This document shows, in pieces, positions 4,602-6,052 of a DNA stretch of 6,052 nucleotides. This DNA comes from Candidatus Fermentibacterales bacterium. GTDB lineage: Bacteria > Fermentibacterota > Fermentibacteria > Fermentibacterales > JAFGKQ01. The stretch lies in contig JAFGKQ010000172.1 of NCBI GenBank assembly GCA_016928495.1, forward strand, positions 1 through 6,052, in the 5' to 3' direction. Within the stretch, counting starts at the first letter, position 1. Every line of letters starts with the position of its first letter. A program made the position numbers and the translations under genes. The notes beneath the pieces were generated by a model. The model saw nothing but the letters and a program-made list of their open reading frames with translations, made no database searches and was not told where the DNA came from.

Positions 4602-4653
4602 TGCCCTGCCCCCCGAAAACTGGTCCACCTGTAATGTTAGTGGGTGGACCACG
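4602..4653 (+). repeat. Orphan IS left-end-like sequence with 9-bp hairpin
   Basis: It begins TGCCCTGCCCCCC, like the TGACCTGCCCCC ends of IS407-type elements, and aligns without gaps to the left end of the second IS at 5967 (33 identities in the first 50 bases). TGGTCCACC (4621-4629) pairs perfectly with GGTGGACCA (4643-4651) around a 13-base loop containing ATGTTAGT. It stops exactly where the complete IS begins (4654). It is either the remnant of another element cut off by that IS or part of a composite leader. Confidence 0.6.
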
Positions 4654-4700
4654 TGACCTTGCTCCCGATAACTGGACACTCTGAGGTTTAGGGATCATCC
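4654..4700 (+). repeat. Left terminal inverted repeat (IRL) of the complete IS
   Basis: Begins TGACCTTGCTCCC and shares shared blocks CTCCC, AAC, GGAC, TCTG, TTTAG, GATC and TCC, in order, with the reverse complement of 5827-5873 (about 34 matches with two small gaps). The similarity running well beyond the first 25 bases is why I place the left boundary here rather than at 4602. Confidence 0.65.
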
Positions 4701-4722
4701 TCGCCCGGGGAGGTAAGGATGG
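4695..4722 (+). promoter_or_regulatory. orfA translation start region with start-codon hairpin
   Basis: GGGGAGG (4707-4713) is a strong ribosome site five bases before ATG 4719. CATCCT (4696-4701) is complementary to AGGATG (4716-4721), so the start codon can be paired in a 6-bp stem (7 with a T-G pair at 4695/4722) with the ribosome site in its loop. A competing stem CCTC/GAGG (4699-4702 with 4710-4713) would cover the ribosome site itself. Either fold could hold orfA expression low. Confidence 0.4.
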
Positions 4723-4985
4723 GCAGGAAGAGGTACACGGAGGAGCAGATCATCTACGCTTTGCGGCAGGCGGACGGAGGTCGTCCGGTACGTGAGGTCT
4801 GTCGGGAGCTGGGTGTGACTGAGCAGTCATTCTACATCTGGCGCAGGAAGTACGGTGGGATGGGCGTGAGCGAGCTTCGCGAGCTGCGGCAGTTGCGTGA
4901 GGAGAACAGGCAGCTCAGGAAGATCGTGGCAGATCTTACGCTGGACAAGCATATCCTGCAGGAAGTCCTCTCAAAAAAAGCCTGA
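4719..4985 (+). CDS. IS3-family transposase OrfA
   Basis: An 88-residue DNA-binding subunit of the IS transposase. Residues 1-46 ([20 protein letters not shown] onward) hold the helix-turn-helix: [20 protein letters not shown] (24-43) includes the recognition helix, which binds the terminal inverted repeats. Residues 53-84 form a leucine-zipper coiled coil ([19 protein letters not shown] and following) used for multimer formation. Read without frameshifting, the protein ends SKKA with a TGA at 4983-4985; shifting back one base at the A7 run produces the OrfAB fusion. The GGGGAGG ribosome site decides the start. OrfA alone normally represses or modulates transposition. Length and motifs are normal for IS407-type elements. 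Confidence 0.93.
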
Positions 4986-5008
4986 AGGCAGCCCGGAAGC
5001 GGGAGCTG
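4973..5008 (+). promoter_or_regulatory. Programmed -1 frameshift signal (A7 slippery site plus stem)
   Basis: Seven A residues (4973-4979) followed by G span the in-frame codons tcA AAA AAA Gcc of orfA. Slipping back one base re-pairs both lysine tRNAs and enters the orfB frame, reading AGC CTG AAG onward without a stop to 5806. Nine bases downstream, CAG-CCCG (4989-4995) pairs with CGGG (5000-5003) and, after a two-base bulge, CTG (5006-5008), making a 7-bp stem at a spacing typical of frameshift stimulators. The orfA TGA (4983) lies between the slip and the stem. Confidence 0.8.
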
Positions 5009-5017
5009 GCGTCGCAG

Positions 5018-5806
5018 GTGGTGGAGTGGTACGAGATCAGCGTACGTCGTGCCTGTGTCCTTCTCGGGCTGCGGAGGTCGGTCTACTACTACAGGAGCCA
5101 TGCAAGGCGTCACGAGGCTCTCAGGGTGCGTCTACGGGAGCTTGCTCTGAGCCGTGTACGGTACGGGTACGTACGGCTGACGGTGCTTCTGAGGCGAGAG
5201 GGCTGGCGGGTGAGCAAGAAGCTGGTGTACCGGTTGTACACCGACATGGGGCTCACCTTGAAGAGCAAGCGTGGGAGGAAGCTCGCCAGGAGGGGCAGGA
5301 TATCGAGGCCTCCTGCTGCGGATGCTCCGAACCAGAGGTGGTGCATGGACTTTGTCACGGAGCGGCTGGAAAGCGGTCGCTACTTCCGCATACTGACGGT
5401 GATGGACCAGTACACCAGGGAGTGTCTCCTGCTGGAGCCCGGAGTGTCTATGAGCGGGACGAAGGTAGCACACTGCCTGGAGGGGCTGGCTCTGGCTCGG
5501 GGATCTCCCGAGTCCGTGACGATGGACAACGGGACGGAGTTCCAGTCCAGGGCGATGGATGCCTGGGCCTACGAGCGGGACGTCCGGCTGGACTTCATAC
5601 GACCCGGCAAGCCCGTGGACAACGGACTGATCGAGAGCTTCAACGGTCGACTGCGGGACGAGTGCCTGAATGTCCACCTGTTCTGGTCTCTGGAGGACGC
5701 CGGGGAGAAGCTGGGAGAATGGCGCACGGACTACAACTCGTTCAGGCCTCACAGTGCCTTAGGGCAGCTAACGCCAGAGGAGTATGCTGCAAGTAGCTGC
5801 AGTTGA
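5018..5806 (+). CDS. IS3-family transposase OrfB (DDE integrase core)
   Basis: The catalytic subunit, expected to act as the C-terminal part of an OrfAB fusion of about 362 residues made by -1 frameshifting at 4973-4979; the orfB frame is open from the slip site, and GTG 5018 is only the first standard start. Counting from 5018, residues 1-30 complete a helical region ([17 protein letters not shown], 10-26), residues 44-76 include [18 protein letters not shown], and the integrase domain follows QRWCMDF. The catalytic residues are Asp111 (CMDF), Asp170 (VTMDNGTEF) and Glu206 (NGLIESFNG), with 35 residues between the last two and a basic residue, Arg213, seven after the glutamate, as in active IS3 transposases. 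The C-terminal [19 protein letters not shown] is typical. It cuts and joins the element ends. No lesion is visible, so it is probably functional. Confidence 0.93.
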
Positions 5807-5826
5807 GCATCATCGAGATGCAGAAC

Positions 5827-5873
5827 GGACGATCTCTAAAGAAGCAGATGGTCCTGTTTTGGGGAGAAGCGCA
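5827..5873 (-). repeat. Right terminal inverted repeat (IRR) of the complete IS
   Basis: Its reverse complement begins TGCGCTTCTCCCC, then AAAACAGGACCATCTG, and pairs in order with 4654-4700. The terminal CA at 5872-5873 is the expected IS3-family end, 67 bases after the orfB stop. Confidence 0.7.
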
Positions 5874-5966
5874 TTTCCTTGGATACTACAACCTGGGCGT
5901 GGATGGTCAACTGGAGGCAATCGGCACTGAGATGGATTCCATTGTGTTTTGCTCGGATTCCGCATA
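5874..5966. other. Short AT-richer spacer between two IS elements
   Basis: A 93-base segment between the end of the first IS and the start of the second, visibly lower in GC than the cellular genes. Two + strand frames are open across it but neither shows a recognisable protein. It is probably a remnant of the DNA into which the elements inserted. Confidence 0.4.
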
Positions 5967-5969
5967 TGA

Positions 5970-6032
5970 CCTGCCCCCGGTTTTTCGGTCCAGGTTCTAT
6001 GTTAGTAGTCGGACCGAAGGAAGAAGGGCAGG
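5970..6032 (+). promoter_or_regulatory. Two-tier hairpin in the second IS leader covering the orfA ribosome site
   Basis: CCTGCCC (5970-5976) is a perfect complement of GGGCAGG (6026-6032), which lies just before ATG 6036. Inside it TTCGGTCC (5984-5991) pairs with GGACCGAA (6011-6018), extendable by two G-T pairs and a T-A pair. Transcripts entering from outside the element could fold this way and hide the ribosome site, a known way for insertion sequences to avoid activation by read-through transcription. Confidence 0.5.
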
Positions 6033-6035
6033 GAG

Positions 6036-6052
6036 ATGTCGCGGAAGCGCTA
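6036..6052 (+). CDS. Second IS transposase OrfA, N-terminal fragment at window edge
   Basis: Only five complete codons are visible, reading MSRKR, followed by TA of a probable tyrosine codon. The match to MGRKRY at the start of the first OrfA, at nearly the same distance from the IS end, supports the call. AAGAAGGG (6021-6028) or GGGCAGGGAG (6026-6035) could serve as ribosome site; the latter abuts the start. Confidence 0.6.

Follow-up and report, generated by a model that had tools for sequence, protein, structure and literature searches.

A putative RNA leader structure at the left ends of a group of IS3-family insertion sequences

The window analyzed here, one whole contig of 6,052 nucleotides (G000:C265), contains two hairpins that close around the same loop sequence, which raises the question of whether a structure is under selection at this locus and, if so, in which molecule and to what effect. 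A sequence-only reading had placed the hairpins at 4621–4651 and 5984–6018 (outer pair of the shared stem at 5986/6016) within two insertion sequence (IS) ends, and direct reading of the plus strand finds both where they had been placed, with ATGTTAGT in either loop (4634–4641 and 5999–6006). Copy 1, formed by TGGTCCACC and GGTGGACCA, pairs T4621-A4651, G4622-C4650, G4623-C4649, T4624-A4648 and C4625-G4647 and, further inward, C4626-G4646, A4627-T4645, C4628-G4644 and C4629-G4643, with T4630.G4642 possible. Copy 2 pairs C5986-G6016, G5987-C6015, G5988-C6014, T5989-A6013, C5990-G6012 and C5991-G6011, and the outer pair, as had been pointed out, is T-A in copy 1 and C-G in copy 2. Minimum free energies were -16.9 for 4619–4653 (z -3.4, 0/200 dinucleotide shuffles equal or better), -11.6 for 5986–6017 (z -2.3, 9/200) and -36.9 for the whole leader at 5967–6052 (z -3.4, 1/200).

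Both hairpins do sit in related IS3-family ends, with tips at 4602 and 5967, but the two ends differ in nature. The end at 5967–6052 (plus strand, tip TGACCTGCCCCC) belongs to a multi-copy element that runs off the contig. It is a true, intact left end, since the genome holds four identical copies of it, all at contig ends (C69, C125, C247, C265), whose flanks are unrelated up to TGACC. The start of its orfA is visible at 6036–6052 (ATG TCG CGG AAG CGC..., MSRKR...), and orfA of relatives begins at the same place. The end at 4602–4654 (plus strand, tip TGCCCTGCCCCCC) carries the hairpin without an orfA of its own. It is matched by our covariance model at 4602–4656 with 43 bits, and reading of the sequence downstream finds neither orfA nor Shine-Dalgarno (SD) region, the left inverted repeat (IR) of another IS beginning at 4655. 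Copy 1 is thus all that is present of a related IS, a solo end truncated where a different IS starts at 4655, and this truncation had previously gone unnoticed.

Relatives were collected by scanning genomes for TGACCTGCCCCC followed within 6–30 nt by ATGTTAGT. This pattern matched at least 118 stretches, and among the matches listed are Chloroflexota, Pseudomonadota, Planctomycetota, Verrucomicrobiota, an Aenigmatarchaeota bin and others, with a nearly fixed distance of 31–32 nt from tip to ATGTTAGT. Together, the IR tip plus ATGTTAG and a covariance model built from 14 left ends yielded at least about 190 related ends. The model was run on 42 genomes of the window's phylum, on 10 genomes of known loci and on 298 genomes belonging to the same class as a Caldilineaceae genome, with matches in 8 of the 298; the left-end set was in part gathered with a model that already contained the structure. 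Mapping of transposase genes revealed that the matches are a mixture of left and right ends. Either end of a complete element has the tip, followed by a GGTCC/GTACCA block and by ATGTTAG, and at right ends ATGTTAGT also lies about 31 nt from the tip, without such a hairpin. As the motif occurs at both ends of complete elements, its constancy is that of a terminal-repeat motif: the loop sequence is identical, as had been proposed, but not because it is a loop. ATGTTAG/ATGTTAGT is best read as a subterminal transposase-binding motif rather than a hairpin-loop signal. Ends of IS3-family elements have been described as bipartite, the outer domain being catalytic and the inner one binding protein (PMC3219604), and the IS911 transposase has been proposed to bridge or bind the subterminal region (PMC2909936); ATGTTAG would be a natural candidate for the inner protein-binding domain here. 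Right ends of Caldilineaceae elements (such as L038, L092 and L153) show a possible CCGAC...GTCGG stem, with variants, adjoining ATGTTAGT, perhaps a terminator-like element after orfB.

What is confined to left ends is the 3′ arm (GGACCG, 6011–6016 in the window) and its pairing with the 5′ arm, both found upstream of orfA and absent from right ends; the GGTCC of the 5′ arm (CGGTCC, 5986–5991) also occurs within the terminal repeat motif. In an arm-swap test, 3′ parts were exchanged between elements, using 30 hand-picked distinct left ends and 37 right-end controls. At left ends, the 5′ arm pairs with its own 3′ region at a duplex energy of -12.3, compared with -10.1 ± 0.43 for swapped regions, and 0/20000 permutations reach the own value, whereas right ends show no effect (-10.1 own vs -10.3 swapped, 13069/20000 permutations as good). 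Chimeras of whole leaders gave 0/20000 at left and 1656/20000 at right ends. In these tests phylogeny was handled by clustering, hand picking and the right-end controls, and shared ancestry is not fully removed. The stem itself takes many forms: GGTCCACC/GGTGGACC in the window, CAGGTC/GACCTG (L163), GTCCAGGTG/CACCTGGAC (L190), GGCCC/GGGCC (L123), CTAGTCC/GGGCTAG and CTAGCCC/GGGCTAG (L036, L188) and CCACAC/GTGTGG (L165, L167).

Formal covariation gave a mixed outcome. In a covariance-model alignment of 83 distinct rows, which as a model-fitted alignment leans toward the structure, 13 cells were changed on both sides of the stem, compared with 5.0 ± 1.7 in shuffles (0/500). The first MAFFT alignment of 14 rows contained the structure, with covariation not clearly above shuffles because the arms shift by one base between branches, and RNAalifold predicted no pairs and no consensus structure on 96 covariance-model rows, probably on account of differing registers between branches. 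The fold is absent from some relatives (L101, L136 and the ISSen4-like L033 and L156). Selection for structure, first suggested from two copies and a single compensatory change, is supported for the IS left end by the many further compensatory differences and by the left-only arm-swap signal.

As to which molecule folds, the inner stem contains 200 G.U cells and 19 A.C cells, most of the G.U cells falling in two columns that are fixed in the Chloroflexota branch and hence amounting to one or a few events; among 30 cluster representatives, G.U cells are only slightly above shuffles (58 vs 55.2 ± 2.3). Since G.U pairs form only in sense RNA, action as sense RNA is favored over a DNA cruciform or an antisense RNA. 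The hairpin might instead work at the DNA level, as a left-specific site for transposase or a host factor or as a cruciform whose arms are palindromic binding half-sites, and the presence of the 5′ arm motif and ATGTTAG within the terminal repeats of both ends would suit this, as would the bipartite IS3-family ends and subterminal binding in IS911 (PMC3219604, PMC2909936). We nevertheless consider it unlikely, as right ends have no 3′ arm, arm sequences vary between branches with pairing kept, and the sense-strand G.U pairs would be mismatches in a DNA cruciform. The earlier suggestions of an RNA leader or a transposase-recognition feature appear each to hold for a different part: the former fits the stem, which is left-only, precedes orfA, has many G.U pairs on the sense strand and is joined by an outer stem over the SD region, and the latter fits ATGTTAG and the 5′ arm motif, common to both ends. 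An intrinsic terminator was rejected for want of a U-run: what follows the stem is GAAGGAAGAAGGG in the window and a purine-rich stretch in the left ends that were read.

The outer stem, which the sequence-only reading had not included, connects the IR tip with the translation start of orfA. In the window, CCTGCCC (5970–5976) forms a perfect 7-bp stem with GGGCAGG (6026–6032, overlapping the SD region GAAGGG of orfA) in both the MFE and the centroid fold. Folds of single sequences place the tip (CCTGCCC or CCCCCC) opposite the SD region (GGGCAGG or GGGGGG) in many left ends, and the two strands change together, as in CTTGCCCC/GGGGCAAG (L087) and CCCCCCG/CGGGGGG (L163), or in TACTGCC/GGCAGTG and TCCTGCC/GGCAGGA from two elements of one group. 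Tips pair better with their own than with swapped leaders (0/20000 permutations reach own). However, a C-rich tip will to some extent pair with any purine-rich leader, and the energy alone is not special: the same tip pairs with ordinary gene leaders of the GC-rich window at -11.5 to -17.6 kcal/mol, its own leader reaching -18.2. The predicted cost of opening the SD region of the window element is 11.1 kcal/mol with the tip, 3.0 without it and 1.6 for an RNA that starts at 6007, and the means over 20 leaders, including three automatic starts that are not real orfA starts (L036+, L238, L244), are 7.3 kcal/mol with the tip and 2.9 for internal starts.

Taken together, we think it fairly probable that the 5′ leader of orfA in this IS3-family group serves to block translation of transposase from read-through transcripts. 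The tip, the GGTCC/GTACC block and ATGTTAG would form a bipartite terminal repeat to which transposase presumably binds at either end. We infer that the sense RNA of the left end, and of no other, folds in the cell. Its inner stem (GGTCC.../...GGACC) would close a loop that contains ATGTTAG, and the outer stem of many members would pair the IR tip with the SD region of orfA. A transcript initiated outside the element would carry the tip and the 5′ arm, so that its ribosome-binding site would be buried and little transposase made, while one initiated within the element, past the 5′ arm, would lack both and be translatable. Shielding from read-through is the simplest account because the SD pairs with the outermost bases of the IS, and these would be missing from RNA that starts inside. 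No convincing internal promoter was identified. By eye, TATAAT overlapping ATGTTAG is common only in left ends of Chloroflexota, and with it as -10 of a sigma-70 candidate the expected -35 position falls on TGCCCC; a promoter overlapping ATGTTAG is at best a weak idea.

Alternatively, the RNA stem could have a different role: it might reduce translation of orfA on all transcripts, the element's own among them, or it might make the leader a target of an RNase or antisense RNA. Transposase leaders that occlude the ribosome-binding site and have antisense RNAs are known, as in ISPpu9 (PMC8450116), and with no internal promoter placed with confidence, the element's own transcripts may keep the 5′ arm. 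We hold this to be improbable, given that one strand of the outer stem is the IS terminus itself, which inside-started RNA would lack, and that the Chloroflexota TATAAT, as seen by eye, would start RNA just past the 5′ arm. Chance or shared ancestry, by which a GC-rich terminus would pair with a GC-rich SD anyway and the two window copies would be alike by simple homology, draws on the good pairing of host leaders with the tip and on the small early alignment without clear covariation. This is disfavored and seems very unlikely in light of the swap permutations, with a signal at left ends and none at right ends of the same group, and of the many differing stems that keep their pairing. It is more doubtful still that the leader is autoregulatory, with OrfA or OrfAB binding or switching its own mRNA leader through the ATGTTAG shown in the loop and copy number thereby linked to translation.

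A leader that shields transposase from read-through would be of a known kind (IS10, IS50, IS200, ISPpu9). IS10 and IS50 are protected from external transcripts in that the start region of transposase is covered when read-through RNA folds back on itself. Likewise, an outside-initiated RNA of the present group would hold terminal sequence that pairs with the translation start, but unlike these IS4-type elements the group is of the IS3 family, its fold, known here from prediction, has two stems, the IR tip serves as anti-SD and the subterminal motif is looped out. IS200 has a stem-loop by which the ribosome-binding site is occluded and a second one that protects against impinging transcripts (PMC3196728); unlike the present elements, it lacks terminal inverted repeats and also has a stem of the terminator type, the hairpin here being without a U-run. 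The ribosome-binding site of ISPpu9 tnp is buried in the fold of its 5′-UTR, and weakening the fold raised reporter activity 26-fold (PMC8450116), but ISPpu9 is a different IS with a long UTR under the antisense RNA Asr9. No description of such a leader in IS3-family elements was found in the open-licence papers searched. If the proposal is correct, a very large IS family has members whose terminal repeat doubles as an RNA safety catch, its bases being at once DNA recognition site and anti-Shine-Dalgarno. This would explain the odd poly-G or GGGCAGG ribosome-binding sites of these elements, and fold plus motif would provide a left-end marker for IS annotation in fragmented metagenome assemblies of several phyla.

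The group resembles IS407-type IS3 elements and is assigned by that resemblance. IS3-family OrfA with HTH and OrfB with DDE (rve) domains are present in the element at 4655 (element 1: PF01527, PF00665, PF13683, NF033516), while the element at 5967 displays MSRKR alone and OrfA/OrfB are encoded by relatives that share its left end. Terminal inverted repeats of the form 5′-TG...CA-3′ were seen where both ends were found (L038, L076, L110, L111, L153 and others). Flanking 4-bp repeats surround some complete elements, TTGC in L042, CCTC in L101 and CACC in L113; no such IS407-type target duplication was found at most other complete elements or for the window. The best annotated relatives are ISSen4 and ISRle4, which we take to be IS407-type; OrfB transposases of this kind are 45–47% identical to that of element 1, and ISSen4-type left ends share the TGACCTGC(T)CCCC tip and ATGTTAGTA. 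Their leaders differ in that the inner stem is absent and the GAGGA beside the orfA ATG is covered by a hairpin of local sequence, ATGTCTTCAT/ATGAGGACAT (ISSen4-like L033, L039, L146, L156, L157). Short hairpins around the SD were also noted by eye in L155, L160 and L161, and hiding of the SD may have arisen repeatedly. An Rfam scan of the window returned nothing credible, and a distant DNA search of plasmids with an 83-nt end gave no match.

Element 1 itself is a 1217-bp IS3-family element at 4655–5871 on the plus strand, with left IR TGACCTTGCTCCCGATAACTGGACA and right IR TGCGCTTCTCCCCAAAACAGGACC (reverse complement, near 5846–5871), and a homologue in G006 (L166) has the same limits at 75% DNA identity. 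Its orfA (4719–4985) encodes HTH_Tnp_1 (PF01527, 6e-24) and its orfB (5018–5806) an rve integrase core (rve/rve_3; NF033516 IS3 family transposase, 1.3e-68). A run of A followed by G (A7G, near 4974–4981) is a candidate slippery sequence, and orfB, which lies in another frame than orfA, is presumably read by -1 frameshift. The solo end and element 1 were considered as one nested double-ended unit, which was rejected, the G006 homologue being oppositely oriented; neither a matching far end nor a target duplication was found for such a unit. Three separate genomes have an element of this type within a solo IS end of the ATGTTAGT type, 50–54 nt inward (window 4602–5871; L166, G006:C30; L093), in both orientations and adjoining left-type or right-type ends. 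The remainder of the invaded IS is absent wherever the far side is readable, and no target duplication was seen. This placement suggests end-directed insertion, which is known for IS911. Between the two ISs of the window, 5872–5966 holds an open frame (FLGYYNLGVDGQLEAIGTEMDSIVFCSDSAYDLPP) resembling part of a gene that the IS at 5967 has interrupted. Solo left ends that terminate just past the hairpin, after about 50–55 nt, recur (L036 at 4841–4895, L229, L237 and window 4602), perhaps as remains of one-ended events or as miniature elements. Finally, two left ends of the same group stand in tandem, 241 nt apart, at positions 250 and 491 of G046:C874 (L190/L236).
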